A program made the translations under genes and the position numbers. Positions 1-64,000 of a stretch of DNA of 64,000 bases are shown piece after piece (position 1 is the first letter of the stretch; each line of letters starts with the position of its first letter). Where the stretch lies: positions 634,318 through 698,317 of the forward strand of contig CM049314.1 of NCBI GenBank assembly GCA_026874595.1, in the 5' to 3' direction. The notes under the pieces are model-generated. The model was not told the origin of the DNA. It did no database searches and was given only the letters and a program-made list of their open reading frames with translations. Source of the stretch: Sipunculus nudus (Eukaryota > Annelida > Sipuncula > Golfingiida > Sipunculidae).

Positions 1-3
1 AGC

Positions 4-200
4 TTCAACATAGCATAAGTTGATCAACTTAAATCAACTTAACTTAAGTTGAATTCTTAAGTTGATCTTAAGTTGATCAACTTATTCTATCTTGAATGGT
101 AAGTTGATCAACTTATGCTATGTTGATCGACTTAAGCTTATGTTGAATGGTAAGTTGACCAACTTAGGCTATGTTGATTACTTAAGTTGAATCTGACTTT
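4..200. repeat. GATC-centred palindromic repeat block
   Basis: The block is built from AAGTTGATCAACTT and relatives (TTAAGTTGAATTCTTAA, TATGCTATGTTGAT). Positions 4-96 form an imperfect inverted repeat whose arms begin TTCAACATAGCATAAG and end with its complement. The same vocabulary recurs at 6.1-6.35, 7.74-8.13, 9.54-9.92, 11.64-12.12, 57.35-57.85 and 59.98-60.44 kb. Confidence 0.9.
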
Positions 201-440
201 AGATTAAAAATTATTTCGATGCTATAACCTTGTTATACTGAACAACCTCGTTATTATGTCCAACTTGGTCATTATGAACATCCTCAATATTATGAAAAAC
301 CTCGTTATTATGAACAACCTCGTTATACTGTCCAACCGGGTTTATTTGTGAACAACTAGGTTATAATCGACAGGAACGTTATTATGAACTATCTTGTCAG
401 AATGAACAACATGGTTATAATGGACAACCTTTGTGTATGT
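201..440. repeat. Degenerate 18-bp minisatellite
   Basis: Short runs of the 18-bp unit GTTATTATGAACAACCTC are separated by unrelated sequence. It is the decayed edge of the larger array that starts near 715. Confidence 0.75.
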
Positions 441-477
441 ATCTATATATGTGTACATGTATGCATATTCTACTCAA

Positions 478-660
478 GGACGTGGCGCACCCTGTAGGTT
501 TACGTTACTATTATGGTCCTAAACTTATAGTTTACTCTAGGACGTGGCTCACCCTGTAGTTGTAAGTCACTATTATGGTCCTAAACTTATAGCTTACTCT
601 AGCACGTGGCGCCCCTACAGTTGTAAGTCACTATTATGGTCCTAAACTTAAGAGTTTTAT
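478..660. repeat. 62-bp tandem repeat, 3 units
   Basis: Units begin GGACGTGGCGC or a variant at 478, 540 and 602. Each ends with CACTATTATGGTCCTAAACT, which is the reverse complement of the dispersed TTTAGGACCATAA motif. Related inverted copies with GGCGCCACGTCCTAG occur near 20,715, 37,640-37,700 and 56,410-56,450. Confidence 0.85.
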
Positions 661-714
661 GGTGCGAACTGTTATGTCAGGGAAATGCAGTTCATCAAGC
701 GTACAAGTGGTCAA

Positions 715-1005
715 TGAAAATCCTCGTAATTATGAACAACCTCGTTATTGTGAACAACCTCGTTATACTGTCCATCCTATTGTGAACAACCTGGTTACAA
801 TGTAAAACCTGGTTATAATGAACAATTTTGTTATTATGAACAACCTGATTATTATGAACAACCTGGTTATTATGAACAACTTGGTTTTAATGAACAACCT
901 CGTTATTATGGACAACCTCACTATTATGAACAACCTAGTTATTATGAACTACCTTGTCAGATTGAAGAACATTGTTATAATGGACAACCTTTGTGTATGA
1001 ATGCA
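715..1005 (-). repeat. 18-bp minisatellite, first orientation
   Basis: The repeated unit on the plus strand is GAACAACCTGGTTATTAT with variants. The period is six codons, so several frames stay open by chance. It meets an oppositely oriented array at about 1,005. Confidence 0.9.
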
Positions 1006-2010
1006 TTATGACCAGGTTGTTCAAAATAATCGGGTTGTTCATAATAACAAGGTTGGACATAATATCGAGGTTGTTCATAAAAACAAGGTTTATCATTATA
1101 ACAAGGTTGCTCTTTATAACCAGATTGGACATTTTCACCAGATTGCTCATAATAACCAGGTTGTTCATTATAACAAGGTTGCTCATAATATGAAGGTTGG
1201 GCATAATAGCGAGGTTGTTCATTATAACGATGTTGTTCATTATAACGAGGTTGGTCATAATAATTAGGTTGGACATAATAAGCAGATTGTTCATTATAAC
1301 AAGGTTTTCATTATAGTGATGTTGGACATAATAACGAGGTTGTTCATTATAACCAGGTTGTTCATTGGACAGTATAACATAGTTTATCATTATAACAAGT
1401 TCATTATAGCAAAGTTGTTTATAATAACCAGGTTGTTCATAGATACCAGGTTGTTCATAATAACCATGTTGTTCACAATGACCAGGTTGGAAATTATAAC
1501 CAGGTTGTTCATAATAACAGGGTTGTTCATTATAACCAGATTGTTCATTCTGACCAGGTTGGACATTAAAATCTGGTTGGACCTTAAAGTCAGGTTGGAA
1601 CTAATAACGAGGGTGTTCATAACCAGGTTGGCCATAATAACAAAGTTGTTGATTATAGCGAGGTTGGTCATTGTAACCAGGTTTTTCATTTTAACCAGGA
1701 TGTTCATTATAACCAGGTTTTTTATTAAAACAACGTTGTTCATAATAACCAGGTTTTAAATTAAAATATGGTTGTTCATTATAATGAGGTTTTTCATTAT
1801 AAAAAGGTTGTTCATAATGATGTTGTTCATTATAACCAGGTTGTTCATTATAACCAGGTTGTTCATAATAACACGGTTGTTCATAATAACAATGTTGTTC
1901 ATTATAACAAGGTTTTTTTCCCTTTAGCCAGGTTAATCTAAGAACGACGTTTTTCATAATGAAGTTGTTCATTATAACCAGGTTGGTCATAATAACCAGG
2001 TTGTACTATC
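1006..2010 (+). repeat. 18-bp minisatellite, inverted orientation
   Basis: The unit is GGTTGTTCATTATAACCA with variants, the reverse complement of the array just upstream. Roughly 55 units fit in the block. Apparent ORFs of 90-150 codons on both strands arise because 18 is a multiple of 3; they lack a consistent frame and are not taken as genes. Confidence 0.9.
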
Positions 2011-3879
2011 ACAAACGAGACGGTATTTTTTTGCAGATTTTCACTAACACACTGTCTCTGTCTGTCTGTCTCTCTCTCTTTTATCTCATTCTCTCACTCC
2101 CCTTGCACTGAAACAACATAACAAATCGAAAAAGACCGTAAACATTTTTATACTATATATTTTATAGAATTCCACAGCTTGTCTTCGAACATGAGGTTGG
2201 CATTGTTGCGGCATTGCAAAACATTATAATGAAATGGTTTAAAAGATTACAGTAGCATAATACTGAAATTAATGACGAACATGCAAAAAGAAAAATACCT
2301 GTTGATATGTGCATTTTACAAAGGAATCATTTCACAAGATTAAAAAGCGTTTACTGAAAACTAGACCTAAGGAGAAAATTACCATTTTGATATTTATCTC
2401 TTTTCCGAGAGCGGCGTGCTCTTAAGTTAATAAATTTACACAGTGTCGACTATCTCTTATCATTTACATTCAACCAGAATGCGAAACATTTTAAAAAGGA
2501 TGTAATTTTAGAGATACAATATATGAATATTAACCCATTGCAAAAGACACCTATGAACACAAGTGACGTTTTATGTCTATGCGTTTTTATTCTAAGTATG
2601 AAAGCACAGCAATACATATTCCATCATGATACGTAACCGTTTTCTCAAGGTAGATGACTGAAACACACTAGAGACGTTGTATGGTATATATAAACTATTC
2701 AAGTCTGTATAAATAAATGGAAGAAAGAATATGTTATGGAAAAGGGGAAACATAAACACATATGATAAGGAAATCATAATGGAAAGTTGTACATATTTTG
2801 CACCGGCCAAACATATGAACAAAAGAAAGAAAATGTATTCATTAAAAATATACCATACATTTATATACACTTTACATATATATATTTACAAGATTATATA
2901 CATGAAATCCTATATACAAAACTGTCTTTGAATCCGCGTCGTTAATAGCGATTATAGTCGTATAGTGAAGCAGATGTTTTACAGAAAGGAAAATTTGGAG
3001 GTAACGTATACATCGTTATATTTCAACAGATGCTTTTACAAACTAAGCCTAACAGCGTTGCAGAAAGCTACATAATAATTACAAACAGTTTTGAAATTAT
3101 ACACTTTTATCACATTGAAAGAAACAGAAAACAACATATACACATATACATATATATATGTATGTTTTTATATTACTGTTTGTCTTACATGGGTATACCC
3201 TAACAGCGTTGCAGAAAGGTAAATAATAATTAAGAACCGTTTTGCAATTATGGTTCATGGGGAATCACGTAACATCTCCCCCTTTTTAAAAAGCATAATG
3301 CAGTTCATTTACTTTAAGAGCATATATATAAGGTCCATTATACAGTCTTTGGTATTATAATGAAATGCAAGAAAGGAAGCACTGATGATCTTCCCTGGTT
3401 ATTTTAGTGCATCTACCGGCGGATTTAACCAAATGGAAAACATTATGAAAAGTGTTTCACGAATTAAACTTGTGGGTAGAGGTTACCAGCACATATCCCA
3501 CATCACTGGTTCTCAGTACCAGTGTTCCCTATCTACCTACTTAACCTAATGATGACCCGATCCTCAGGCGTCATAGCGCACCGGCCTTCTGACAACGCGG
3601 CCACAGCGTGTAACAGTTGGGGCAGCTTCTCGTGGCCAGTAGGGGTCGTTTCCTTAATGCAGGTTTCTTTTCAAACTATGTAAAAATTTAAAAAATAACA
3701 GTGGTATAATAAAAAAGAAAAGATAAAATGCTAAAGATATCTGTCGATGTGTGCATTTTGCTGGAATGAAAAAGGTTAACTTAAAACTAGACGTAATAGT
3801 GAATTACCGTTTGACTTTTTTTCCCTTTTGGGTTGGACACGGCATGCTGAACACTTAAAAAATTAAAAAAAATTTGCCA
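2011..3879. other. Plain AT-rich sequence, no gene seen
   Basis: After a CT-rich tract at 2,055-2,095 this is ordinary AT-rich DNA with no convincing ORF, splice pair or RNA gene. The segment to 3,757 is nearly identical at 62,250-64,000. A short internal repeat, CCTAACAGCGTTGCAGAAAG, occurs near 3,048 and 3,199. Confidence 0.7.
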
Positions 3880-4500
3880 TCCTATTATCATTATGGAACA
3901 CATGGTTGGAACGTGGCATATACATGCATACCAGACAAAAATAACATATGAAGTGGCCACACCCTAAAATGTACAGTTTATAGTCTCCATTACAATTTGT
4001 TTTCCAACACTTAGGCATGTTGAAAAAAATTCAACTAATGTTATACTGCTGTAATGGTCCTTAAAAGAACTACACCAAACCATTGAATGAGCCGACTGCT
4101 TGGTTTGATGTATACAGATGCATTATAATTTAAATCCATCAGACTGAATGGAATCCTTTATTATTCTTTTAATGAATATGCCCTTCATCATTGTGTTAGA
4201 CCAGCGGTGAAGAATATTAAATTTTCTATTTTTTCGGGTTATGTCTTTCTGCATTTTGTTATTTCAACCATTCAATCTTCTTTTCAGGAATGGGCAGTAA
4301 ATCATTAGGTCATCATCATATCTTGGGTGTGTGTGTGTGTGGGGGGGGGGGGAGATGGTTTCGTCTGTTCTGCAATGACAACACCCTCGGCTGGACTCCT
4401 GCAAAAAATATTTAAGAATTGCACGTATATACATATACAAATATGCATTGATACGGACTCCTACAACAAGTATTTAAGAATTGTACACTGTGTAATTTTT
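3880..4500. repeat. Diverged copy of the 34.4-34.96 kb segment
   Basis: Phrases such as ATTATCATTATGGAA, CCAAACCAT, GATGTAT.CAGATGCA and TTAAATTTTCTATTTTTT occur in the same order at 34,395-34,960. It starts a larger duplicated order that continues into the TTTAGGACCATAA block and the CTC-rich repeats (3.9-6 kb against 34.4-37.3 kb). Confidence 0.8.
4285..4430 (+). repeat. Interspersed ~145-bp repeat (GTCATCATGATATC family)
   Basis: Starts near CAGGAATGGGCAGT, contains a GTCATCAT core and a GT- or G-rich run, and ends GGACTCCTACAACAA, TATTTAAGAATTGTAC. The 3' part is repeated again at about 4,450-4,495. Other copies lie at 5,631, 7,287, 9,071, 17,876, 34,815, 36,017 and 37,068. It could be a short interspersed element or simply a module of the mosaic; no target-site duplication was identified. 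Confidence 0.8.
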
Positions 4501-4619
4501 TTTTATTTTAATGGAATTACATATATTGAATTATACTTTTAAGCTGAGGACCATATCACGGTATGTTTAGGACCATAACAATGTAAGTTTATGACCATAC
4601 CACTGTTTTTTCAAGACTG

Positions 4620-5320
4620 TAATACTGCATGTTTATGAGCATAACATTCAACTTAATTTTGTATTGGTCCTGTATTTTCAACTTAATATGCTTAGGACTA
4701 TAACACTGTATGTTTAGGACCATAATACTGTATGTTTAAAACCATAACATTCAACTTAATTTTGTATTGGTCCTGTATTTTCAACTTTATATGCTTAGGA
4801 CTATAACACTGTATGTTTAGGACCATAATACTGTATGTCTAAAACCATAACATTCAACTTAATTTTGTATTGGTCCTGTATTTTCAACTTAACAAGTTTA
4901 GGACTATAACACTGTATGTTTAGGACCATAATATTGTATGTTTAGGACCATAATAATCAACTTAATTTTGTATTGGTCCTGTATTTTCAACTTAATATGC
5001 CTAGGACTATAACACTGTATGTTTAGGACCATAATACTGTATGTCTAGAACCATAACATTCAACTTAATTTTGTATTGGTCCTGTATTTTCAACTTAATA
5101 TGCTTAGGACTATAACACTGTAGGTTTAGGACCATAATACTGTATGTCTAAAACCATAACGTTCAACTTAATTTTGTATTGGTCCTGTATTTTCAACTTA
5201 ACAAGTTTAGGACTATAACACTCTATGTTTAGGACCATAATACTGTATGTTTAGGACCATAATAATCAACTTAATTTATGTATTGCTCCTGTATTTTCAA
5301 CTTAACAGGTCTTTAAGTTT
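4620..5320. repeat. 103-bp tandem repeat, about 7 units
   Basis: The landmark ATTTTGTATTGGTCCTGTAT recurs at about 4,656, 4,759, 4,862, 4,965, 5,068, 5,171 and 5,275, a spacing of 103 bp. Each unit carries two or three copies of TTTAGGACCATAA-type sequence. Confidence 0.95.
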
Positions 5321-5570
5321 ATTCAACTTAGAATTAAGTTTACACAACTTAGGCTTACGTTGATTCCGAACTCAAGTTAGTTTGTACATTCATGTGTCTT
5401 CACTCCTCACTGGACCTTTGTACTTTCCAGTGCATTCGCATTGTATTTACCTCTCTCGATTCCTGTGCCTTGGTTCTCAGTTCACCTGTGAAGATTCATG
5501 TGCTTAGACGCTCTACTTACCTCAGTACATCCCTTTCCTTTGATTTTCAGTTTTCCTACGTGAAACAGCG
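5321..5570. repeat. Edge of the CTC-rich repeat domain
   Basis: Contains degenerate units related to CTCTGTACATTCCTGTGCTT and GACGCTCTACTTACCTCAGT, the building blocks of the large arrays downstream. The same text recurs at about 36,295-36,480. Confidence 0.75.
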
Positions 5571-5917
5571 AAGGGCCAAAACGTTCTAGAATAATACATA
5601 CATATACACATACATACATACATACCTTTTTTTTAGGAATAGGCTGTCAATCATTACGTCATCATGATATCTATAGTGTGAGGGGGATGGTTTCATCTGG
5701 TCTGCCAAAAGCGCGCCCTGATCCGGACTCCTACAACAATTATTTAAGAATTGTACACTGTGTACCATTTTTTAATGAAATTATATATATTTAAATATAA
5801 TTTATAGATATATCATGAAATAGAATATGTATATGCAAATATAGGACTGTTCGTGATTGTGTGTATAAATATAGAATTGATGCTCCTTTTTCAAGATAGC
5901 CGCTATAACCCTAGGTT

Positions 5918-5957
5918 GTTATAAACCTATAGGTTAACAACCCTAGTCAACTATGTT
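5918..5957. repeat. CCTAGGTTGTT hairpin
   Basis: An imperfect inverted repeat pairs CCCTAGGTTGTTATAAACC with GGTTAACAACCCTAG across a short loop. It recurs in each 1,785-bp unit, at about 57,210-57,250 and, shortened, near 59,825. It is conserved with its surroundings, so conservation alone does not show function. Confidence 0.7.
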
Positions 5958-7975
5958 TCGGACCATAACATTAAGTTTAGCACCATAATCAATAAAATTG
6001 TCATTTCAGACCTGAGAAATGGCCTTTGGAGTCCGATCGGTCAGTCAGACTCCATCGGGTCAAGAAAAATGAGTTCTCCTCATGTGTCATCTATACCTTA
6101 GGTTGAATGGTAAGTTGATCAACTTATGATATGTTGATCGACTTAACTTAAGTTGAATTCTTAAGTTGATTTAAGTTGATCAATTTATGCTATATGGAAT
6201 GGTAAGTTGATCAACTTAAATCAACTTAACTTAAGTTGAATTCTTAAGTTGATCTTAAGTTGATCAACTTATGCTATGTTGAATGGTATGTTGATCAACT
6301 TATGCTATGTTTATCAACTTCAGCTTATGTTTATCAACTTAAGAATTCAACAAAAGCTATTTAACTCTTGAGATTGCTGAGTTCAGCTCTGCATATTCCT
6401 CTGCTTCGAATATAAACTTATCTCAGTAACTCACTTTGATTTGCTACTCATTTTTCCTCTGTATTTTGCTTTCCTTTGGCCCTCACTGTAGCTCTGTAAA
6501 TGCATTCGCATTGTGTTTACCTCTCTCGATTCCTGTGCTTTGGTTCTCAGTTCACCTGTGAAGATTCATGTGCTTAGACGCTCTACTTACCTCAGTACAT
6601 CCCTTTCCTTTGATTTTCAGTTTTCCTACGTACATTACTCTGCTCTGACTTAGTTTGACTCTGTAGATTCCTGTGCTTTGACTTTCAGTTCAGCTCTGCA
6701 CATTCCTCTGCTTTACTTACCTCGTAAATCACTTTGCTTTGATGATCATTTCCCTCTGTATATTGCTTTGCTTATGCATTCACTGTAGCCCTGTACATTT
6801 GTGTGTTTTCATTCCTCACTTGACTTAATTACTGTAAAATGCTTAAGCACTCAGTTTACATCTTTGGATTCCAATTTTGGTTCTCAATCCAACTGCTAAG
6901 AGTAGTGTGCTTAGACGCTCTACTTACCTCAGTACATCAATTTGCTTTGATCCTCAGCTTTTCCATTGTATATTTCTCTGCTGTGACTCATTTTAACTAT
7001 GTCCACTGTTGTGCTTTGACTCTCTTATAAACTCTCTCCTTTAAAAGTCAACTTACCTCGTTAATGTTTCACTTCGGTTTGGCCATCATTTTATTATCTC
7101 AAAACTGCTGTGCTTTAGCTCACAGGGTACCTCTGTACATTGGTGTGTTTTCAGGGCTCAGTTTACCTCTGTCTGTTATTTTCCCTTGGCCCTAAGTGTA
7201 ACGTGAAACAGCGAAGGGCCAAAACGTTCTAGAATAATACTTACATATACACATACATACATACATACATACATACCTTTTTTTTAGGAATAGGCAGTCA
7301 ATCATTACGTCATCATGATATCTATAGTGTGAGGGGGATGGTTTCATCTGGTCTGCCAAAAGCGCGCCCTGATCCGGACTCCTACAACAATTATTTAAGA
7401 ATTGTACACTGTGTACCATTTTTTAATGAAATTATATATATTTAAATATAATTTATAGATATATCATAAAATAGAATATGTATATGCAAATATAGGACTG
7501 TTCGTGATTGTGTGTATAAATATAGAATTGATGCTCCTTTTTCAAGATAGCCGCTATAACCCTAGGTTGTTATAAACCTATAGGTTAACAACCCTAGTCA
7601 ACTATGTTTCGGACCATAACATTAAGTTTAGCACCATAATCAATAAAATTGTCATTTCAGACCTGAGAAATGGCCTTTGGAGTCCGATCGGTCAGTCAGA
7701 CTCCATCGGGTCAAGAAAAATGAGTTCTCCTCATGTGTCATCTATACCTTAGGTTGAATGGTAAGTTGATCAACTTATGATATGTTGATCGACTTAACTT
7801 AAGTTGAATTCTTAAGTTGATTTAAGTTGATCAATTTATGCTATATGGAATATTAAGTTGATCAACTTAAATCAACTTAACTTAAGTTGAATTCTTAAGT
7901 TGATCTTAAGTTGATCAACTTATGCTATGTTGAATGGTAAGATGATCAACTTATGCTATGTTGATCGACTTAAGC

Positions 7976-8068
7976 TTCAACATAGCATAAGTTGATCAAC
8001 TTAAATCAACTTAACTTAATTTGAATTCTTAAGTTGATCTTAAGTTGATCAACTTATGCTATGTTGAA
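7976..8068. repeat. 93-bp palindrome with nested GATC palindromes
   Basis: Outer arms of about 29 bp, beginning TTCAACATAGCATAAGTTG and ending with its reverse complement, flank further inverted matches. Equivalent copies are at about 9,762-9,855, 11,999-12,079, 57,557-57,649, 60,204-60,296 and, imperfectly, 4-96. It could form a cruciform or be the remnant of a short foldback element. Confidence 0.85.
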
Positions 8069-10560
8069 TGGTATGTTGATCAACTTATGCTATGTTTATC
8101 AACTTCAGCTTATGTTTATCAACTTAAGAATTCAACAAAAGCTATTTAACTCTTGAGATTGCTGAGTTCAGCTCTGCATATTCCTCTGCTTCGAATATAA
8201 ACTTATCTCAGTAACTCACTTTGATTTGCTACTCATTTTTCCTCTGTATTTTGCTTTCCTTTGGCCCTCACTGTAGCTCTGTAAATGCATTCGCATTGTG
8301 TTTACCTCTCTCGATTCCTGTGCTTTGGTTCTCAGTTCACCTGTGAAGATTCATGTGCTTAGACGCTCTACTTACCTCAGTACATCCCTTTCCTTTGATT
8401 TTCAGTTTTCCTACGTACATTACTCTGCTCTGACTTAGTTTGACTCTGTAGATTCCTGTGCTTTGACTTTCAGTTCAGCTCTGCACATTCCTCTGCTTTA
8501 CTTACCTCGTAAATCACTTTGCTTTGATGATCATTTCCCTCTGTATATTGCTTTGCTTATGCATTCACTGTAGCCCTGTACATTTGTGTGTTTTCATTCC
8601 TCACTTGACTTAATTACTGTAAAATGCTTAAGCACTCAGTTTACATCTTTGGATTCCAATTTTGGTTCTCAATCCAACTGCTAAGAGTAGTGTGCTTAGA
8701 CGCTCTACTTACCTCAGTACATCAATTTGCTTTGATCCTCAGCTTTTCCATTGTATATTTCTCTGCTGTGACTCATTTTAACTATGTCCACTGTTGTGCT
8801 TTGACTCTCTTATAAACTCTCTCCTTTAAAAGTCAACTTATCTCGTAAATCTTTCACTTCGGTTTGGCCATCATTTTATTATCTCAAAACTGCTGTGCTT
8901 TAGCTCACAGGGTACCTCTGTACATTGGTGTGTTTTCAGGGCTCAGTTTACCTCTGTCTTTTATTTTCCCTTGGCCCTAAGTGTAACGTGAAACAGCGAA
9001 GGGCCAAAACGTTCTAGAATAATACATACATATACACATACATACATACATACATACATACCTTTTTTTTAGGAATAGGCAGTCAATCATTACGTCATCA
9101 TGATATCTATAGTGTGAGGGGGATGGTTTCATCTGGTCTGCCAAAAGCGCGCCCTGATCCGGACTCCTACAACAATTATTTAAGAATTGTACACTGTGTA
9201 CCATTTTTTAATGAAATTATATATATTTAAATATAATTTATAGATATATCATAAAATAGAATATGTATATGCAAATATAGGACTGTTCGTGATTGTGTGT
9301 ATAAATATAGAATTGATGCTCCTTTTTCAAGATAGCCGCTATAACCCTAGGTTGTTATAAACCTATAGGTTAACAACCCTAGTCAACTATGTTTCGGACC
9401 ATAACATTAAGTTTAGCACCATAATCAATAAAATTGTCATTTCAGACCTGAGAAATGGCCTTTGGAGTCCGATCGGTCAGTCAGACTCCATCGGGTCAAG
9501 AAAAATGAGTTCTCCTCATGTGTCATCTATACCTTATGTTGAATGGTAAGTTGATCAACTTATGATATGTTGATCGACTTAACTTAAGTTGAATTCTTAA
9601 GTTGATTTAAGTTGATCAATTTATGCTATATGGAATGGTAAGTTGATCAACTTAAATCAACTTAACTTAAGTTGAATTCTTAAGTTGATCTTAAGTTGAT
9701 CAACTTATGCTATGTTGAATGGTAAGATGATCAACTTATGCTATGTTGATCGACTTAAGTTTCAACATGGCATAAGTTGATCAACTTAAATCAACTTAAC
9801 TTAATTTGAATTCTTAAGTTGATCTTAAGTTGATCAACTTATGCTATGTTGAATGGTATGTTGATCAACTTATGCTATGTTTATCAACTTCAGCTTATGT
9901 TTATCAACTTAAGAATTCAACAAAAGCTATTTAACTCTTGAGATTGCTGAGTTCAGCTCTGCATATTCCTCTGCTTCGAATATAAACTTATCTCAGTAAC
10001 TCACTTTGATTTGCTGCTCATTTTTCCTCTGTATTTTGCTTTCCTTTGGCCCTCACTGTAGCTCTGTAAATGCATTCGCATTGTGTTTACCTCTCTCGAT
10101 TCCTGTGCTTTGGTTCTCAGTTCACCTGTGAAGATTCATGTGCTTAGACGCTCTACTTACCTCAGTACATCCCTTTCCTTTGATTTTCAGTTTTCCTACG
10201 TACATTACTCTGCTCTGACTTAGTTTGACTCTGTAGATTCCTGTGCTTTGACTTTCAGTTCAGCTCTGCACATTCCTCTGCTTTACTTACCTCGTAAATC
10301 ACTTTGCTTTGATGATCATTTCCCTCTGTATATTGCTTTGCTTATGAATTCACTGTAGCCCTGTACATTTGTGGGTTTTCATTCCTCACTTGACTTAATT
10401 ACTGTAAAATGCTTAAGCACTCAGTTTACATCTTTGGATTCCAATTTTGGTTCTCAATCCAACTGCTAAGAGTAGTGTGCTTAGACGCTCTACTTACCTC
10501 AGTACATCAATTTGCTTTGATCCTCAGTTCAGTTTAACTCTGTAGATTGCTGTGTTCAGC

Positions 10561-11125
10561 TCTGCACATTACTCTGTTTTCACAATCAACTTACCTCAGC
10601 ATCTGTTCCTCATTTTACATCTTTATTTTGCGTTCGGTTAGTAGCTCGCTGTAGCTCTGTAAATTTTCCTGTGTTTCACTCCTCACTGGACCTGTGTACT
10701 ATCCAGTGTGTTAGCACTCGGTGTACATTTCTGTATTTCTTTACTTTGGTTCTCCATGAACTGGTGTGCTAAGACGCTCTACTGACCTCAGAACATCACT
10801 TTTGCTTTGATCCTCAGCTTCTCCATTTTCTGCAGATTCCTCTGCCCGGACAATCAACTTACCTGGTAAATCTGTCTGCTCTGGTTTGGGGGTCATGTTT
10901 TCCTCTGTAAACTAAGATTAAGTTTAAGACCATAACACTGAAGAATTAGGACTGAGACATCGTAAGTTTAGCTTGGGGCCTTAAAACTGATTCCTCTGCC
11001 TGGACAATAAACTTACCTGGTAAATCTGTTAGCTCTGGTTTGGTGGACATTGTTTTCCTCTGTATACTAAGCTTAAGTTTAGGACCATAACTCTGTAAGT
11101 CTAGGACCACAACAGGGAAATTAAT
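10561..11125. repeat. Degenerate CTC-rich repeats passing into TTTAGGACCATAA motifs
   Basis: Shortened copies of the GCTCTGTAAATT and CTCTACTTACCTCAG modules give way to TTTAGGACCATAAC repeats. The section with CTGAAGAATTAGGACTG has a second copy at 19,375-19,460. Confidence 0.75.
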
Positions 11126-11560
11126 CCATACATACATTCATAAATAGATACAAGTATCCACACATATACAAACACATACATACATATGTGTAACACTGTT
11201 AACAGTATTCTTAGCTTAAGTTTGGGACCACAACATAACAACGTAAGTTTAGGACCATAAGTTCTTTCCCACGCTCAGGCCTCACCTCTGGTCTGTGGTT
11301 TTGGCGCGAAATACAACATCAAAAACATCACATTACTATATTTCCAAGGATTCTAAACTTCAAATTTAAGTCTGCCGGACAAGAGATTCTCATACTGAAT
11401 GCTGCACGTTTAAGCATTTGTACAATTTGTACATTAATTTACCAATTACGAGTAAAAACGTAACAGACAGTACTCGCCCACGTCTTGTTCCTGTGCACCT
11501 GGTCCGATATTATGTGGGTCGTTGCCTTGGCGACGTTGCCTCATTATCATAAGCTTAGGT
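11126..11560 (+). repeat. Segment duplicated at 18,641-19,085
   Basis: Contains (CATA)n sequence and then a moderately complex stretch including GGTTTTGGCGCGAAATACAAC and CAAGAGATTCTCATACTGAA. The copy at 18,641-19,085 matches almost base for base with a few substitutions. No coding frame is convincing in either copy. Confidence 0.9.
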
Positions 11561-12110
11561 TTAGGACCATAACATTATATTTAAGATAACAGTGAATAAA
11601 TTATCATTTCAGACCTGAGAAATGACGTTATGTTGAAATATTAGGTTTATGTTGATTTCTTAAGTTGATCAAATCAAGCTAAGTTGATCAACTTATGCTT
11701 AAGTGGATTCTTATGTTGATCAGCTTAAGCTTAAGTTGATCAACTTATGCTTAAGTGGATTCTTATGTTGATCAGCTTAAGCTTAAGTTGATCAACTTAT
11801 GATATGTTGATCGACTTAACTTAAGTTGAATTCTTAAGTTGATTTAAGTTGATCAATTTATGCTATATGGAATGGTAAGTTGATCAACTTAAATCAACTT
11901 AACTTAAGTTGAATTATTAAGTTAATCTTAAGTTGATCAACTTATGCTATGTTGAATGGTAAGATGATCAACTTATGCTATGTTGATCGACTTAAGCTTC
12001 AACATAGCATAAGTTGATCAACTTAAGAAATCAACTTAAGTTAAGTTGATTTAAGTTGATCAACTTATGCTATGTTGAAGCTTAAGTTGATCAACTTAAG
12101 CTATGTTTAT
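11561..12110. repeat. Palindromic AAGTTGATCAACTT block
   Basis: Dense GATC-centred palindromes and short directly repeated pieces such as TGCTTAAGTGGATTCTTATG. The first part matches 57,250-57,480. Confidence 0.9.
11999..12079. repeat. 81-bp palindrome of the 93-bp class
   Basis: Same outer arms as the 7,976-8,068 palindrome, with a shorter and differently mutated centre that remains self-complementary. Confidence 0.8.
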
Positions 12111-17780: not shown

Positions 17781-17793
17781 CCTAAGTGTAACG

Positions 17794-18092
17794 TGAAACA
17801 GAGAAGGGCCAAAACGTTCTAGAATAATACATACATATACACATACATACATACATACATACATACCTTTTTTTTAGGAATAGGCAGTCAATCATTACGT
17901 CATCATGATATCTATAGTGTGAGGGGGATGGTTTCCTCTGGTCTGCCAAAAGCGCGCCCTGATCCGGACTCCTACAACAATTATTTAAGAATTGTACACT
18001 GTGTACCATTTTTTAATGAAATTATATATTTAAATATAATTTATAGATATATCATAAAATAAAATATGTATATGCAAATATAGGACTGTTCG
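17794..18092 (+). repeat. Fourth copy of the 1,785-bp unit start, cut by satellite
   Basis: CGTGAAACAGAGAAGGGCC and the ~145-bp interspersed repeat (17,876-18,015) reappear as at 7,202 and 8,987. The match ends abruptly near 18,096 in GACTGTTCGTGATT, where the 169-bp satellite begins. Confidence 0.9.
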
Positions 18093-42830: not shown

Positions 42831-43059
42831 ATACTGTAAGTTTAGGACCATAACACTGTACCATAAGGTAAGTTTTGGACTAAACACTTGTCCATTATAA
42901 CCAATTTGTATTTTATAACTATGCTGGATATTATAACCAGCTTTCACTAAGCTTACGATTAGGACTATAACATTGTAAGTTTAGGACCAATGACAACCCG
43001 GTTATACTTACCACACTGGTTATACTGACCACACTGGTTATAATGACCACAATGGCTAC
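42831..43059. repeat. TTTAGGACCATAA motifs and a decayed 18-bp array
   Basis: TTTAGGACCATAACACTGTA is followed by a third 18-bp variant, CTGGTTATACTGACCACA, before the 169-bp array begins inside CTTTAATTATCTTGAAAACT. Confidence 0.8.
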
Positions 43060-52000: not shown

Positions 52001-55000
52001 AACAATTCTCTTGATTATTTAATTATCTTGAAAACTCAGGTAAGCGGGAATCCCACAATTTCAACGCGAAGTGCCGAATGAGGCTTGAAACACGACAAAA
52101 GATCCATTTTGCATATACGAGTAGCGTCAAACCACCCCCTGGCACTTCCGGGTCACCCTGAAAACCCGAAACAATTCTCTTGATTCTTTAATTATCTTGA
52201 AAACTCAGGTAGGCTGGAATCGCACAAATTCAACGCAAAATGCGGAATGCGGCTTGAAACATGAGAAAAGTTCCGTTTCGCATATATGAGTAGCGTGGAA
52301 CCACACCCTGGCACTTCCGGGTCCCCCTGAAAACCCGAAACAATTCTCTTGATTCTTTAATTATCTTGAAAACTCAGGTAAGCGCGAATCACACAATTTC
52401 AACGCAAAGTGCGGAATGCGGCTTGAAACACGAGAAAAGTTCCGTTTCGCATATATGAGTAGCGTCGAACCACACCCTGGCACTTCTGGGTCCCCCTGAA
52501 AACCCGAAACAATTCTCTTGATTATTTAATTTTCTTGAAAACTCAGGTAAGCTGGAATCGCCCAATTTCAAAGCGAAGTGCGGAATGCGGCTTGAAACAT
52601 GAGAAAAGTTCCATTTCGCATATACGATTAGCGTCAAATCACACCCTGGCACTTCTAGGTCAAGCCGAAACCCCGAAACAATTCTCTTCATTATAAAATT
52701 ATGTTAAAAACTAAGGTCGGCTGGAATCGCAAAATTTCAACACGAAGTGCGGAATGCGGCTTGAAACACGAGAAAAGTTCCCTTTCGCATATACGAGTAG
52801 CGTCGAACCACACCCTGGCACTTCCGGGTCCCACTGAAAACCCGAAACAATTCTCTTGATTCTTTAATTATCTTGAAAACTCAGGTAAGCGGGAATATCA
52901 CAATTTCAACGCGAAGTGCGGAATGAGGCTTGAAACACGACAAAAGATCCATTTTGCATATACGAGTAGTGTCGAACCACCCCCTGGCACTTCCGGGTCA
53001 CCCTGAAACCCGAAACAATTCTCTTGATTCTTTAATTATCTTGAAAACTCAGGTAGGCTGGAATAGCACAAATTCAACGCAAAATGCGGAATGCGGCTTG
53101 AAACATGAGAAAAGTTCCGTTTTGCATATATGAGTAGCGTCGAACCACACCCTGGCACTTCCGGGTCCCTCTGAAAACCCGAAACAATTCTCTTGATTCT
53201 TTAATTATCTTGAAAACTCAGGTAAGCGCGAATCACACAATTTCAACGCAAAGTGCAGAATGCGGCTTGAAACACAAGAAAAGTTCCGTGTCGCATGTAC
53301 GAGTAGCTTTGAACCACACCCTGGCACTTCCGGGTCACCCTGAAACCCGAAACAATTCTCTTGATTATTTAATTTTCTTGAAAACTCAGGTAAGCTGGAA
53401 TCGCCCAATTTCAAAGCGAAGTGCGGAATGCGGCTTGAAACATGAGAAAAGTTCCATTTCGCATATACGATTAGCGTCAAATCACACCCTGGCACTTCTA
53501 GGTCAAGCCGAAACCCCGAAACAATTCTCTTCATTATAAAATTATGTTAAAAACTAAGGTCGGCTGGAATCGCAAAATTTCAACACGAAGTGTGGAATGC
53601 GGCTTGAAACACGAGAAAAGTTCCCTTTCGCATATACGAGTAGCGTCGAACCACACCCTGGCACTTCCGGGTCCCTCTGAAAACCCGAAACAATTCTCTT
53701 GATTCTTTAATTATCTTGAAAACTCAGGTAAGCGCGAATCACACAATTTCAACGCAAAGTGCAGAATGCGGCTTGAAACACAAGAAAAGTTCCGTGTCGC
53801 ATGTACGAGTAGCTTTGAACCACACCCTGGCACTTCCGGGTCACCCTGAAACCCGAAACAATTCTCTTGATTATTTAATTTTCTTGAAAACTCAGGTAAG
53901 CTGGAATCGCCCAATTTCAAAGCGAAGTGCGGAATGCGGCTTGAAACATGAGAAAAGTTCCATTTCGCATATACGATTAGCGTCAAATCACACCCTGGCA
54001 CTTCTAGGTCAAGCCGAAACCCCGAAACAATTCTCTTCATTATAAAATTATGTTAAAAACTAAGGTCGGCTGGAATCGCAAAATTTCAACACGAAGTGCG
54101 GAATGCGGCTTGAAACACGAGAAAAGTTCCCTTTCGCATATACGAGTAGCGTCGAACCACACCCTGGCACTTCCGGGTCCCACTGAAAACCCGAAACAAT
54201 TCTCTTGATTATTTAATTATCTTGAAAACTCAGGTAACCGGGAATCCCACAATTTCAACGCGAAGTGCGGAATGAGGCTTGAAACACGACAAAAGATCCA
54301 TTTTGCATATACGAGTAGCGTCCAACCACCCCCTGGCACTTCCGGGTCACCCTGAAACCCGAAACAATTCTCTTGATTCTTTAATTATCTTGAAAACTCA
54401 GGTAGGCTGGAATCGCCCAATTTCAAAGCAAAGTGCGGAATGTGGCTTGAAACACGAGAAAAGTTCCATTTCGCATATACGAGTAGCGTCAAATCACACC
54501 CTGGCACTTCTAGGTCAAGCCGAAACTCCGAAACAATTCTCTTCATTATAAGATTATGTTAAAAACTAAGTTTGGCTGGAATCTTACAATTTCCGCGTGA
54601 AGCCGGGAATGCGGCTTGAGACGCAACAAAAGATCCATTTCGCATATACGAGTAGCGTCGAACCACACCCTGGCACTTTTGGGTCACGCCGAAACCCCGA
54701 AACAATTCTCTTCATTATTAAATTATCTTGAAAACTCAGGTAGGCTGGAATCGCACAATTTCAACGTGAAGTGCGGAATGCAGCTTGAAACACGAGGAAA
54801 GTTCCATTTCGCATATACGAGTAGCGTCAAACCACACCCTGGCACTTCCGGGTCCCCCTGAAAACCCGAAACAATTCTCTTGATTATTTAATTATCTTGA
54901 AAACTCAGGTAAGCGGGAATCCCACAATTTCAACGCGAAGTGCCGAATGAGGCTTGAAACACGACAAAAGATCCATTTTGCATATACGAGTAGCGTCGAA

Positions 55001-55720
55001 CCACCCCCTGGCACTTCTGGGTCACCCTGAAAACCCGAAACAATTCTCTTGATTCTTTAATTATCTTGAAAACTCAGGTAGGCTGGAATCGCACAAATTC
55101 AACGCAAAATGCGGAATGCGGCTTGAAACACAGGAAAAGGTCCGTTTCGCATATAAGAGTAGCGTGGAACCACACCCTGGCACTTCCAGGTCCCCCTGAA
55201 AACCCGAAACAATTCTCTTGATTATTTAATTTTCTTGAAAACTCAGGTATACTGGAATCGCCCAATTTCAACGCGAAGTGCGGAATGCGGCTTGAAACAC
55301 GAGAAAAGTTCCATTTCGCATATACCAGTAGCATCAAATCACACCCTGGCACTTCTAGGTCAAGCCGAAACTCCGAAACAATTCTCTTCATTATAAAATT
55401 ATGTTAAAAACTAAGGTTGGCTGGAATCTTACAATTTCCGCGTGAAGCCGGGAATGCGGCTTGAGACGCGACAAAAGATCCATTTCGCATATACGAGTAG
55501 CGTCGAACCACACCCTGGCACTTCCGGGTCACGCCGAAACCCCGAAACAATTCTCTTGATTCTTTAATTATCTTGAAAACTCAGGTAGGCTGGAAATGTA
55601 CAATTTCAACGGGAAGTGCGGAATGCAGCATGAAACACGATAAAAGTTCCATTTCGCATATACGAGTAGCGTCAAACCACACCCTGGCACTCCGGGTCCC
55701 CCTGAAAACCCGAAACACTG
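43060..55720 (+). repeat. 169-bp satellite array, about 75 units
   Basis: Landmark GCTGGAATC recurs every 169 bp, all in one orientation. Each unit has GAAGTGCGGAATGCGGCTTG, TTTCGCATATACGAGTAGCG, CACACCCTGGCACTTCCGGG and TTATCTTGAAAACTCAGGTA. Two subfamilies alternate irregularly: the common one, and a rarer one with CTTACAATTTCCGCGTGAAG, GAGACGCGACAAAAGATCCA and AAATTATGTTAAAAACTAAG (near 43,603, 45,464, 46,309, 46,816, 48,000, 51,710, 54,578 and 55,420). As 169 is not a multiple of 3, ORFs break at each unit, and the 80-109 codon frames seen are not genes. The unit length is close to one nucleosome, as for many centromeric satellites. Confidence 0.98.
49300..54166 (+). repeat. Nested higher-order duplications in the 169-bp array
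   Basis: About 1.66 kb at 49,300-50,960 recurs at 52,001-53,661 with an offset of 2,701 bp (16 units). Inside it, 53,205-53,660 recurs at 53,711-54,166 (offset 506 bp, 3 units). A further pair, 51,520-52,200 and 54,389-55,070, has an offset of 2,869 bp (17 units). The copies share private variants, for example GAAACACAAGAAAAGTTCCG followed by TGTCGCAT, indicating unequal exchange or block conversion. Confidence 0.9.
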
Positions 55721-56489: not shown

Positions 56490-57060
56490 TGTTATAAATT
56501 AAGCCTGCAGAGGTGCCACTTTCTGTTCATGTGCATAAAGCTTTGTCATTTTTCAAATTTCAACCTTAAAACTCAGGATATTTGTAAAAGTCATTAAAAC
56601 TGATATTTTGGAAAAGAAAAAAAAATATTTACCTTAAAATTTTTCGATAAAATTGAGTTTAAAAATTAAGGACCGAAATTACAAAATTCAACTTAAGGCT
56701 AACCATGACTGATTTTAAGCGTTAAAAAACCCAGTAAAAACGCAGAAAACGTCATTTATTTGGTGAACTGTCCTCTGCTATCAGTTTTTATCACCGTCTG
56801 GAAAGCAAAAATAGAAAATTTAAAGTTGAATAAAAAAAAATAAACATTTAAAATTTTTCATTTTTAAATTTGAAATTTACTCATAAATTATGCAAAACGC
56901 ATATTTTGTTTGTTTTCTTTTCCAAATACAAACAGGAATGCGATTACAGAACTAACCCAGGACAAAAATTGATTTTTCCAAGTTTATTCGAAAAGTTATT
57001 AGCATAATTTTAAATTTTAAGAAATTTTAATTTTTAATGACTTTAAGTTCTAATCGTGAT
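56490..57060 (+). repeat. ~550-bp segment duplicated at 59,230-59,780
   Basis: Shared ordered phrases include GAGGTG.CACTTT, AAACTCAGGATATTTGTAAA, CTAACCATGACTGATTTTAA and GCAAAACGCATATTTTGTTT. No coding potential; very A/T rich. Confidence 0.9.
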
Positions 57061-57176
57061 ATGATATGAATGTATTAGCGTTTCTACTTTCGACAGTTCG
57101 TTAAAACAAACTCTATTTCAGTTATTTTGAGTGTTTGTATACTTTTATTATCGTTTCTCTGTTTTTTAATGACTTT

Positions 57177-57910
57177 AAAGAATTGATGCTCCTTTTTTAA
57201 GTATAGCCGCGATAACCCTAGGTTGTTATAACCCTATAGGGTAACAACCCTAGTCAACTTAAGTTTAGGACCATAACATTATATTTAAGATAACAGTGAA
57301 TAAATTATCATTTCAGACCTGAGAAATGACCTTATGTTGAAATATTAGGCTTATGTTGATTTCTTAAGTTGATCAAATCAAGCTAAGTTGATCAACTTAT
57401 GCTTAAGTGGATTCTTATGTTGATCAGCTTAAGCTTTAGTTGATCAACTTATGCTTAAGTGGATTCTTATGTTGATCAGCTTAAGCTTAAGTTGATCAAC
57501 TTATGCTATGTTGAATGGTAAGTTGATCAACTTATGCTATGTTGATCGACTTAAGCTTCAACATAGCATAAGTTGATCAACTTAAATCAACTTAACTTAA
57601 GTTGAATTCTTAAGTTGATCTTAAGTTGATCAACTTATGCTATGTTGAATAGTAAGTTGATCAACTTATGCTATGTTGATCGACTTAAGCTTATGTTGAA
57701 TGGTAAGTTGATCAACTTATGCTATGTTGATCGACTTAAGCTTATGTTGAATGGTAAGTTTATCAACTTAATCTATGTTGATCAAATTAAACTTATGTTG
57801 AATCGTAAGTTGATCAGCTTAGGCTTTGTTGAATCTGACTTTGCACTTGAGATTATGTCGAATAGTTACTTTCATACATACAAACATACATACAAACATA
57901 CGTACAAACA
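57177..57910. repeat. Palindromic block with CCCTAGG hairpin
   Basis: Matches 5,877-5,950 (hairpin) and 11,560-11,780, then GATC-centred palindromes including the 93-bp palindrome at 57,557-57,649. A frame with repeated KLINLCYVDRLKLMLNGK is translation of the palindromes and not a gene. A (CATA)n-like run leads into the next satellite piece. Confidence 0.9.
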
Positions 57911-58735: not shown

Positions 58736-58739
58736 TCTA

Positions 58740-58812
58740 GCCCTAACCCTAACCCTAACCCTAACCCTAACCTAACCCTAACCCTAACCCTAACCCTAAC
58801 CCTAACCCTAAT
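58740..58812 (-). repeat. Interstitial telomeric repeat tract
   Basis: Twelve CCCTAA units on the plus strand (TTAGGG on the minus strand) with one CCTAA slip near 58,770. Pure enough to be fairly recent. With the C-rich strand reading left to right, a terminal telomere of this orientation would cap the left side, yet 58.7 kb of DNA lies to its left, so it is internal. Confidence 0.97.
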
Positions 58813-59229: not shown

Positions 59230-59780
59230 CTGAGATAGTGGCAAATTCAGCCGAGGTGTCACTTTTTATTAATGTGCATATAATTTTGTCATTTATTAAG
59301 TTTCGACCTTTAAACTCAGGATATTTGTAAAAGTCAGTAAAACTGATATTTTGGAAAAGAAAAAAAAATTTTAACTTTAAAAGTTTTTGAAAAAATTGAG
59401 TTTAAAAATGTAGGACCGAAAGTACTAAATTCAACTTAAGGCTAACCATGACTGATTTTAAGCGTTTAAAAACCCAGTAAAAACATAGAAAACGTCATTT
59501 ATATGGTGAACTGTCGTCTGCTATCAGTTTTTATCACCGTCTGGAACGCAAAAACAAAAAATTTAAAGTTGAATAAAAAAAAAATAAACATTTAAAATTT
59601 TTCATTTTTAAATTTGAAATTTACTCATAAATTATGCAAAACGCATATTTTGTTTGTTTTCTTTTCCAAATACAAACAGGAATGCGATTACAGAACCAAA
59701 CCAGGGCAAAAATTGATTTTTCCAAGTTTATTCGATAATTATTAGCATAATTTTAAATTTTAAGAAATTTTCATTTTCAC
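59230..59780 (+). repeat. Second copy of the 56.49-57.06 kb segment
   Basis: Aligns with the first copy throughout with scattered substitutions and small indels. Like the first copy it is followed by AAGAATTGATGCTCCTTTTT and the CCCTAGG module, so the duplication continues into the mosaic. Confidence 0.9.
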
Positions 59781-59784
59781 GACT

Positions 59785-60200
59785 TTAAAGAATTGATGCT
59801 CCTTTTTCAGGATAGCCGCTATAACCCTAGGGTTAACAACCCTAGTCAACTATGTTTCGGACCATAACATTAAAAATTGTCATTTCAGACCTGAGAAATG
59901 GCCTTTGGAGTCCGATCGGTCAGTCAGACTCCATCGGGTCAAGAAAAATGAGTTCTCCTCATGTGTCATCTATACCTTATGTTGAATGGTAAGTTGATCA
60001 ACTTATGATATGTTGATCGACTTAACTTAAGTTGAATTCTTAAGTTGATTTAAGTTGATCAATTTATGCTATATGGAATGGTAAGTTGATCAACTTATAT
60101 CAACTTAACTTAAGTTGAATTCTTAAGTTGATCTTAAGTTGATCAACTTATGATATGTTGAATGGTAAGTTGATCAACTTATGCTATGTTGATCGACTTA
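59785..60200 (+). repeat. Mosaic junction before the right long duplication
   Basis: Shares with 5,880-6,240, 7,510-7,900 and 9,300-9,690 the hairpin, GGAGTCCGATCGGTCAGTCA, CTCATGTGTCATCTATACCT and the palindromes. The right long duplication (from 60,201) begins within the palindromes. Confidence 0.9.
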
Positions 60201-63200
60201 AGCTTCAACATAGCATAAGTTGATCAACTTAAATCAACTTAACTTAAGTTGAATTCTTAAGTTGATCTTATGTTGATCAACTTATGCTATGTTGAATGGA
60301 AAGTTGATCAACTTATGCTATGTTGATCGACTTAAGCTTATGTTGAATGGTAAGTTGATCAACTTATGCTATGTTGATCGACTTAAGCTTATGTTGAATG
60401 GTAAGTTGACCAACTTAGGCTATGTTGATTACTTAAGTTGAATCTGACTTTAGATTAAAAATTATTTCGATGCTATAACCTTGTTATACTGAACAACCTC
60501 GTTATTATGTCCAACTTGGTCATTATGAACATCCTCAATATTATGAAAAACCTCGTTATTATGAACAACCTCGTTATACTGTCCAACCGGGTTTTTTTTT
60601 AACAACCAGGTTATAATCGACAGGATCGTTTTATAGAACTATCTTGGCAGAATGAACAACATGGTTATAATGGACAACCTTTGTGTATGTATCTATATAT
60701 GTGTACATGTATGCATATTCTACTCAAGGACGTGGCGCACCCTGTAGTTTTACGTCACTATTATGGTCCTAAACTTATAGTTTACTCTAGGACGTGGCTC
60801 ACCCTGCAGTTGTAAGCCACTATTATGGTCCTAAACTTATAGCTTACCCTAGCACGTGGCGCCCCTACAGTTGTAAGTCACTATTATGGTCCTAAACTTA
60901 AGAGTTTTATGGTGCGAACTGTTATGTCAAGGAAATGCAGTTCATCAAGCGTACAAGTGGTCAATGAAAATCCTCGTAATTATGAACAACCTCGTTATTG
61001 TGAACAACCTCGTTATACTGTCCATCCTATTGTGAACAACCCGGTTACAATGTAAAACCTGGTTATAATGAACAATTTTGTTATTATGAACAACCTGATT
61101 ATTACGAACAACCTGGTTATAGTGAACAACTTGGTTTTAATGAACAACCTCGTTATTATGGACAACCTCACTATTATGAACAACCTCGTTATTATGAAGT
61201 ACCTTGTCAGATTGAAGAACATGGTTATAATGGACAACCTTGCATTATGACCAGGTTGTTCATAATAACCAGGTTGTTCATTATAACTAGGTTGGACATA
61301 ATATCGAGGTTGCTCATTAAAACAAGGTTTATCATTATAACAAGGTTGCTCTTTATAACCAGATTGGACATTTTGACCAGATTGCTCATAATAACCAGGT
61401 GGTTCATTATAACAAGGTTGTTCATTATATGAAGGTTGGGCATAAAAGCGAGGTTGTTCATTATAACGATGTTGTTTATTATAACGAGGTTGGTCATAAT
61501 AATCGGGGTTGGACATAATAAGCAGATTGTTCATTATAACTAGGTTTTCATTATAGTGATGTTGGACATAATAACGAGGTTGTTCATTATAACCAGGTTG
61601 TTCATTGGACAGTATAACATAGTTTATCATTATAACAAGTTCATTATAGCAAAGTTGTTTATAATAACCAGGTTGTTCATAGATACGAGGTTGTTCATAA
61701 TAACCATGTTGTTCACAATGACCAGGTTGGACATTATAACCAGGTTGTTCATAATAAGAGGGTTGTTCATTATAACCAGATTGTTCATTTTGACCAGGTT
61801 GGACATTATAATCTGCTTGGACCTTAAAGTCAGGTTTGAACTAATAACGAGGGTGTTCATAACCAGGTTGGCCATAATAACAAAGTTGTTGATTAAAGCA
61901 AGGTTGGTCATTATAACCAGGTTTTTCATTTTAACCAAGATGTTCATTATAACCAAGTTTTTCATTAAAACAACGTTGTTCATAATAACGAGGTTTTAAA
62001 TTAAAATATGGTTGTTTATTATAATGAGGTTTTTCATTATAAAAATGTTGTTCATAATGATGTTGTTCATTATAACCAGGTTGTTCATTATAACCAGGTT
62101 TTTCATAATAACACGGTTGTTCATAATAACAATGTTGTTCATTATAACAAGGTTTTTTTTTCATTTTAGCCAGGTTAATCTAAGAACGACGTTTTTCATA
62201 ATGAAGTTGTTCATTATAACCGGGTTGGTCATAATAACCAGGTTGTACTATCACAAACGAGACGGTATTTTATTGCAGATTTTCACTAACACACTGTCTC
62301 TGTCTGTCTGTCTCTCTCTCTCTTTTATCTCATTCTCTCACTCCCCTTGCACTGAAACAACATAACAAATCGAAAAAGACCGTAAACATTTTCATACTAT
62401 ATATTTTATAGAATTCACAGCTTGTCTTCGAACATGAAGTTGGCATTGTTGCGGCATTGCAAAACATTATAATGAAATGGTTTAAAAGATTACAGTAGCA
62501 TAATACTGAAATTAATGACGAACATGCAAAAAGAAAAATACCTGTTGATATGTGCATTTTGCAAAGGAATCATTTCACAAGATTAAAAAGCGTTTACTGA
62601 AAACTAGACCTAAGGAGAAAATTACCATTTTGATATTTATCTCTTTTCCGAGAGCGGCGTGCTCTTAAGTTAATAAATTTACACAGTGTCGACTATCTCT
62701 TATCATTTACATTCAACCAGAATGCGAAACATTTTAAAAAGGATGTAATTTTAGAGATACAATATATGAATATTAAACAATTGCAAAAGACACCTATGAA
62801 CACAAGTGACGTTTTATGTCTATGCGTTTTTATTCTAAGTATGAAAGCACAGCAATACATATTCCATCATGATACGTAACCGTTTTCTCAAGGTAGATGA
62901 CTGAAACACACTAGAGACGTTGTATGGTATATATAAACTATTCAAGTCTGTATAAATAAATGGAAGAAAGAATATGTTATGGAAAAGGGGAAACATAAAC
63001 ACATATAATAAGGAAATCATAATGGAAAGTCGTACATATTTTGCACCGGCCAAACATATGAACAAAAGAAAGAAAATGTATTCATTAAAAATATACCATA
63101 CATTTATATACACTTTACATATATATATTTACAAGATTATATACATGAAATCCTATATACAAAACTGTCTTTGAAACCGCGTCGTTAATAGCGATTATAG

Positions 63201-64000
63201 TCGTATAGTGAAGCAGATGTTTTACAGAAAGGAAAATTTGGAGGTAACGTATACATCGTTATATTTCAACAGATGCTTTTACAAACTAAGCCTAACAGCG
63301 TTGCAGAAAGCTACATAATAATTACAAACAGTTTTGAAATTATACACTTTTATCACATTGAAAGAAACAGAAAACAACATATACACATATACATATATAT
63401 ATGTATGTTTTTATATTACTGTTTGTCTTACATGGGTATACCCTAACAGCGTTGCAGAAAGGTAAATAATAATTAAGAACCGTTTTGCAATTATGGTTCA
63501 TGGGGAATCACGTAACATCTCCCCCTTTTTAAAAAGCATAATGCAGTTCATTTACTTTAAGAGCATATATATAAGGTCCATTATACAAAGTCTTTGGTAT
63601 TATAATGAAATGCAAGAAAGGAAGCACTGATGATCTTCCCTGGTTATTTTAGTGCATCTACCGGCGGATTTAACCAAATGGAAAACATTATGAAAAGTGT
63701 TTCACGAATTAAACTTGTGGGTAGAGGTTACCAGCACATATCCCACATCACTGGTTCTCAGTACCAGTGTTCCCTATCTACCTACTAAACCTAATGATGA
63801 CCCGATCCTCAGGCGTCATAGCGCACCGGCCTTCTGACAACGCGGCCACAGCGTGTAACAGTTGGGGCAGCTTCTCGTGGCCAGTAGGGGTCGTTTCCTT
63901 AATGCAGGTTTCTTTTCAAACTATGTAAAAATTTAAAAAATAACAGTGGTATAATAAAAAAGAAAAAAAAATGCTAAAGATATCTGTCGATGTGTGCATT
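60201..64000 (+). repeat. Right copy of the long direct duplication (cut by window end)
   Basis: Counterpart of 1-3,757. Includes the inverted 18-bp arrays (60,480-61,243 and 61,244-62,250), the 62-bp repeats at about 60,720-60,900 and the plain AT-rich part. The extra length comes mainly from one additional palindromic unit near 60,330-60,400. Multi-frame ORFs up to 205 codons come from the 18-bp period. Confidence 0.95.
61006..62250. repeat. 18-bp minisatellite with orientation switch at about 61,243
   Basis: Same layout as 715-2,010: GAACAACCTGGTTAT-type units to about 61,243, then GGTTGTTCATTATAACCAGG-type units. The switch is preserved in both copies, so it predates the long duplication. 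Confidence 0.9.

Follow-up and report, generated by a model that had tools for sequence, protein, structure and literature searches.

A probable subtelomeric duplicon in two structural classes near a contig end of Sipunculus nudus

In this study, we focus on a stretch of 64,000 nucleotides from the sipunculan annelid Sipunculus nudus (assembly GCA_026874595.1, contig CM049314.1, positions 634,318 to 698,317 of the forward strand; the whole stretch is hereafter called the window), which very probably comprises a first unit and the beginning of a second unit of a subtelomeric duplicon, the blocks of which have been exchanged between chromosome ends. The duplicon is a mosaic of minisatellites, two satellites, and an island of gene fragments. 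Its units are found at three contig ends and fall into two structural classes, both of which lie adjacent to each other on the contig of the window, with tandem arrays of unequal size. This reading largely settles the earlier suspicion of a macro-repeat, and the stretch provides a documented example of how duplicons may move between chromosome ends.

The genome comprises 1,426,538,692 bases in 153 contigs, of which C1-C17 measure 61-111 Mb and sum to 1.397 Gb, and C18 measures 52.5 kb. The window corresponds to C9:634,318-698,317, approximately 0.63 Mb from the left end of this 79.8-Mb contig. All counts of genome matches given below are lower bounds, comprising the best-scoring candidates only. 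Positions are those of the window unless a contig is named, and the features are collected in Table 1.

The duplication and its continuation beyond the window

The first-pass annotation, made from the letters of the window alone, had claimed a long direct duplication of 1-3,757 (copy A) and 60,201-64,000 (copy B). This duplication is real, and direct alignment gives 96.25% identity over 3,816 columns, with 68 mismatches and 11 gap openings, the largest gaps measuring 51 bp (in a palindromic minisatellite block, PAL) and 11 bp (in an array of 18-mers). The wording that the copies agree nearly base for base is apt for 2,005-3,757, where 1,739 of 1,750 aligned bases are the same (99.4%, 11 differences), and less so for the tandem part, 1-2,004 (1,934 of 1,991, or 97.1%, 57 differences); the differences are unevenly distributed between the two parts (Fisher p 1e-7). 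Inside the window, 2,005-3,757 has one further match besides the A/B pair, of only 28 bp. The 18-bp minisatellite switches strand inside its array in both copies (207-2,004 and 60,444-62,246), and the turn therefore predates the duplication.

To either side of the window, 60 kb on the left (52 kb of it readable, -59,999 to -8,000) and 70 kb on the right were fetched and compared by 20-mer chaining over the 194-kb region, ignoring words that occur more than 6 times. The rightward match passes the window edge and reaches 5,354 in unit 1 and 65,708 in unit 2 (chain of 509-5,354 with 60,759-65,708), so that the duplicated length seen in the window is indeed a minimum, as had been supposed. A mismatch between the sequence past 64,000 and that past 3,757 had been named as the finding that would count against the earlier reading; the two do match, and the reading came through this particular check. 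After 65,708, the modules of unit 2 keep the order of unit 1. Unit 2 spans about 34 kb (60,201-94,177), the spacing between copies A and B is 60.2 kb, and 16.7 kb of unit 1 are missing from unit 2. Further 215-bp repeats follow past 94,177, and a 46/23-bp minisatellite array of about 30 kb occupies 103,368-133,992, reaching the end of the sequence read. The readable left flank consists mostly of a different tandem array, whose units measure about 5.9-8.9 kb and contain 365-bp and 331-bp repeats, and which has inverted copies beyond a run of 500 N; no 20-mer chain links these 52 kb to the modules of the unit. By eye, the first bases of contig C9 look like the 365-bp repeat.

Distribution of copies near contig ends

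The single-copy-like segment that follows the 18-bp array, segment U, was used as a genome query (2,010-3,750) and returned at least 67 matches, four of them full-length at 99-100% identity (two on C9, one each on C10 and C17). All four full-length matches (1.74 kb) lie within 1.2 Mb of a contig end, the four recent units sitting 0.6-1.15 Mb from it, which points to a subtelomeric segmental duplication rather than a macrosatellite array. Among the matches with E up to 1e-40, 29 of the 29 listed fall within 1.2 Mb of an end, as do 47 of the 67 listed in all; the remaining 20 do not exceed 139 bp in length, and their E values are 5e-18 or weaker.

Other parts of the unit are distributed similarly. 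The query 1,000-2,500 gave at least 114 matches touching at least 19 of the 34 contig ends. Of the 114 listed, 111 fall in the outer 1.2 Mb of a contig, against 2.9% expected, and 96 in the outer 500 kb, the three exceptions being on C3 and C5; these matches are not independent, since many are adjoining pieces of one array. For module M4 (query 56,500-57,240), at least 41 matches were obtained, and 41 of the 41 listed are within 1.2 Mb of an end, at 19 or more ends. The island of gene fragments (query 24,000-27,400) gave at least 70 matches, two of them nearly full-length (C9 itself and C10, the latter at 99%); the other 68 listed are pieces of 68-87% identity near the ends of C4, C8, C12, C13, C15, and C17, with one in the interior of C1. 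Together, these matches suggest a family of chromosome-end sequences, in which the four units would form a recent subgroup and the matches at other ends an older layer.

Taking a segmental duplication as a sequence of more than 1 kb with at least 90% identity in two or more places, the four 1.74-kb matches and the colinearity with C10 described below qualify, and the segmental duplication that the first-pass annotation had listed as an alternative fits these data. The copies are also concentrated near contig ends (111 of 114 and 41 of 41 listed matches). Between the two C9 units lies a telomere tract of about 75 bp whose TTAGGG strand points to the near (left) contig end, giving one example of a tract at a block boundary that faces the end. 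Nowhere else in the readable sequence of the C9, C10, and C17 stretches do exact telomere repeats follow one another three or more times, and, with no comparable tract in the readable C10 and C17 stretches, it is a single case.

Two side observations concern the order of blocks. Segment U (2,005-3,881) and the gene island (20,582-34,403) each lie between an 18-bp array and module M1, as though they filled one and the same cassette slot, and at 12-23 kb of C15, U-like pieces and, after them, island-like pieces come behind an 18-bp array.

Two structural classes and the kinship of copies

The C10 copy (78,756,097-78,806,125) is colinear with the window from 99 to about 46,300, island included, over about 50 kb and with about 98% identity across the island. 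By contrast, unit 2 of C9 and the C17 copy are without the island, 19,605 being joined to approximately 36,338. This junction coincides in unit 2 and C17 to within a base or two, which is most simply explained by inheritance through shared descent, and in a comparison of these two copies, both carry M4/M2 on the left. The common breakpoint 19,605|36,338 allows the two structural classes to be distinguished and tracked.

Base differences were examined over 207-4,560, where six sites group copy A with C10 against copy B with C17, two group A with B, and none groups A with C17. The corresponding tree, (B,C17),A,C10, has an ultrafast bootstrap of 90 with a joining branch of 0.0015, and the branch of copy B is the longest (0.014). 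Another four-way alignment gave 9 to 1, with three of the sites in the palindromic block, and the count of 6 to 2 over 207-4,560 is therefore used. Over 2,005-4,560, identities are 98.9% (A-B), 99.3% (A-C10, A-C17, and C10-C17), 98.8% (B-C10), and 99.1% (B-C17); in the minisatellite, they are 96.7% (A-B), 98.4% (A-C10), 98.6% (A-C17), 98.5% (C10-C17), and 97.2% (B-C17). Copy A is closer to both the C10 and the C17 copies than to copy B, so neither C9 copy arose simply by recent tandem duplication of the other, unless copy B changed faster.

Weighing the explanations

We consider a subtelomeric duplicon with blocks exchanged between chromosome ends to be by far the most probable explanation. 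Under this explanation, blocks would have moved between ends through ectopic recombination (unequal exchange or break-induced copying), leaving C9 with one unit that has the island and one that does not, and the satellite arrays would afterwards have grown and shrunk locally. The telomere tract between the units may represent an older chromosome end or a duplicon boundary.

Several points weigh against this explanation. The C9 units are oriented to their contig end in the opposite way to the C10 and C17 units, so a uniform orientation toward the end is not seen; a simple exchange of tips would not produce this. Contig ends were sampled over 300 bp each, at six right ends and 17 left ends (two of which consist entirely of N), and in these no two telomere repeats occur in a row; "subtelomere" here accordingly means "contig end". 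In raw identity, C17 lies closer to both A and C10 than to B, both in the minisatellite and outside it, owing to the long own branch of B. The base differences agree only weakly with the two structural classes, as the sites are few (6 to 2) and the joining branch is short. PAL blocks, of which the window has 14 with 204 motif hits, coincide with block ends in 29 of 88 cases against 12.2 by rotation (p 0.007); this excess would favour the explanation, but it is biased because alignments break readily in tandem repeats. Moreover, the joint between the two units is a claim of the assembly.

An assembly artefact, in which the units are two alleles of one place or a C17-like contig was wrongly joined to C9, is unlikely but retains a small share of the probability; a mis-joined assembly was among the earlier suggestions. 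Alleles could differ as much as A and B do in the single-copy part (0.6-1.1%), joins across satellites are unsafe, a run of 500 N lies in the left flank, and the available excerpt of PMC9516828 puts false duplications at 4-16% of the earlier assemblies examined there. The same excerpt gives a gap between the copies as one mark of false duplication, whereas no N occurs in the window, including between the units, or in the 70 kb to its right. Like the false heterotype duplications described there, the C9 units are two similar copies on one scaffold, but unlike them, they have no gap between the copies, and there are more than two copies, on three contigs and in two structural classes. Copy A is also more similar to the C10 and C17 copies than to B. 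Between B and C17, the difference is 0.9% over 2,005-4,560 and 2.8% in the minisatellite, so that B is hardly the C17 locus placed twice, whereas an allele of that locus is still conceivable.

A true macrosatellite, that is, an array in which units of about 60 kb recur many times in tandem, the window being one period, had been the leading suggestion of the first-pass annotation and is now very improbable. Two tandem units do lie on C9, and the match runs past the right edge; however, unit 2 measures about 34 kb and is without the 16.7 kb, no periodic array was found, and 20-mer chaining revealed no third unit in the 70 kb to the right or the readable 52 kb to the left. Instead of many tandem units of even length, there are two, spaced 60.2 kb apart, and of at least four full-length U matches genome-wide, on three contigs, only two are listed on C9. 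For the macrosatellites DXZ4, RS447, RNU2, and CT47, the available excerpt of PMC3599962 reports units of 3-6.6 kb. A large unit repeated in tandem is a feature in common with them, whereas the unequal length and content of only two tandem units and the copies on other chromosomes are not.

The possibility that one dispersed mobile element inserted twice, as A and as B, can be practically dismissed: the match has no visible ends in the window, and the edges could have truncated a bounded element of more than 3.8 kb, but the match extends further and is followed by other modules in the same order, no transposase or reverse-transcriptase family appears among the Pfam matches of the scanned pieces, and only four full-length matches are listed, all near contig ends.

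The subtelomeric duplicon proposed here resembles the human subtelomeric duplicons described in the available excerpt of PMC2323237 in being made of mosaic blocks that are common to the ends of different chromosomes and vary in order and content. It also has an internal TTAGGG-like tract at a block boundary facing the chromosome end, such tracts being reported there at human duplicon boundaries. Unlike the human duplicons, the block consists largely of satellite and minisatellite, its four recent units lie as far as 0.6-1.15 Mb from the contig end, and orientation toward the chromosome end is not kept. A literature search of titles and abstract openings found no description of this block, although an earlier report is possible.

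The gene-fragment island

The island contains fragments of unrelated genes. The LAR-type and CBL exon fragments, for instance, lie within 800 bp of each other (27,468-28,205). The CBL exon has at least three genome matches, on C9, C10, and in the interior of C17 (49.91 Mb, 93%), and the LAR exon also at least three, on C9, C10, and in the interior of C4 (52.86 Mb, 69%). Judging from these matches, the interior copies on C17 and C4 are likely to be the donors of the respective island exons, which makes exon capture into chromosome ends testable. For the p53 transactivation exon, four matches are listed, on C9, on C10, and two at 108-109 kb of C15, all near contig ends. The structure 7pc6, the best match of the p53 DNA-binding fragment, is mentioned in the available excerpt of PMC8901663, a paper on the annelid Alvinella. 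Judged by sequence alone, the gene fragments as a group indicate an animal, and this p53 match makes an invertebrate, likely a lophotrochozoan, the probable source. One could imagine that exons of interior genes (p53 family, CBL, LAR phosphatase, BTB) are gathered at chromosome ends, between minisatellite arrays, and passed on from one end to another as in an exchange pool; the p53-type exon, whose splice borders look intact, would then belong to a subtelomeric p53-like family. We regard this reading as doubtful.

The Pfam scan covered 95 of 110 non-satellite stop-free pieces of at least 62 aa (85 + 10). In the shorter class of 32-61 aa, with 164 pieces on the two strands together, it took in the plus strand, where 75 of 77 pieces were scanned. 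For the frame at 31,582-32,022, a PDB search up to E 1 gave no match, and its Pfam matches all stay below threshold. By eye, 23,577-23,756 is a decayed look-alike of the p53 transactivation exon. Inverted repeats surround (TA)n tracts at 28,692-29,196, where 28,923-29,000 equals 29,119-29,196 in inverted orientation at 100%; they are possibly a small DNA transposon.

Other features of the unit

Table 1. Features of the two C9 units in window coordinates (symbols as in the text; positions above 64,000 lie right of the window)
Positions	Strand	Feature	Evidence or remark
1-206	+	Copy A, PAL block (TTGATCAACTTAA type)	Motif hits; A vs B identity
207-2,004	+	Copy A, 18-bp minisatellite in both orientations	Turns at ~991-1,004
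471-650		62-bp repeat within the 18-bp minisatellite of copy A	
2,005-3,881	+	Copy A, single-copy-like segment U	Four full-length genome matches (query 2,010-3,750)
3,882-5,557	+	Module M1, containing a 103-bp tandem repeat	Older partial copy at 34,404-36,290
5,558-10,527	+	Module M2, tandem units of 1.65-1.79 kb	
11,657-18,098	+	M2-like shorter units with PAL blocks	
18,098-18,623	+	169-bp satellite, three monomers	
19,606-36,337	.	Segment of C9 unit 1, also on C10; lacking in C9 unit 2 and C17	
20,582-34,403	+	Low-copy island, fragments of unrelated genes	
21,926-22,177	+	p53-family DNA-binding domain fragment, ending in stop	Pfam P53 2.8e-12; best PDB match 7pc6, 4.4e-14
27,468-27,701	+	LAR-type receptor tyrosine phosphatase, Ig-domain exon fragment	
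27,990-28,205	+	CBL C-terminal UBA exon	
30,481-30,780	+	p53 transactivation-motif exon	Pfam P53_TAD 3e-5; AG and GT borders by eye
33,273-33,569	+	BTB-domain fragment	Pfam BTB 5.3e-8
37,774-40,372	+	215-bp satellite, 12 copies	2.5 copies at corresponding place of unit 2
41,603-42,815	+	18-bp minisatellite preceding the 169-bp satellite	
43,067-55,717	+	169-bp satellite, 75 copies	14 copies in unit 2
56,496-57,250	+	Module M4	At least 19 of the 34 contig ends have nearby matches; second, partial copy from 59,243
58,737-58,811	-	Interstitial telomere tract	Between unit 1 and unit 2; CCCTAA on +
59,990-60,437		PAL ahead of and inside copy B	
60,201-64,000	+	Copy B, start of unit 2	Unit runs on to ~94,177
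65,055-83,471		Unit 2, M2 array	
83,452-87,327		Unit 2, corresponds to 9,062-12,790	
85,848-86,842		Unit 2, corresponds to 18,634-19,605	
86,881-88,839		Unit 2, corresponds to 36,378-38,180	
88,389-94,033		Unit 2, corresponds to 39,667-44,812	

Scans of the whole window with Rfam (gathering scores) and for tRNAs gave no matches. A pattern made from the 169-bp satellite had no hit in two collections, viral_contigs and genome_contigs. Long open reading frames occur in the 18-bp arrays but were not accepted as genes, since several frames are open there on both strands. The 169-bp array at 43,067-55,717 shows no single regular higher-order repeat, and blocks of 16 and of 17 monomers have recently been duplicated in it. 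Of 58 pairs of monomers spaced 16 apart, 10 reach 97% identity or more, and monomers 50-52 are 99-100% identical to monomers 67-69.

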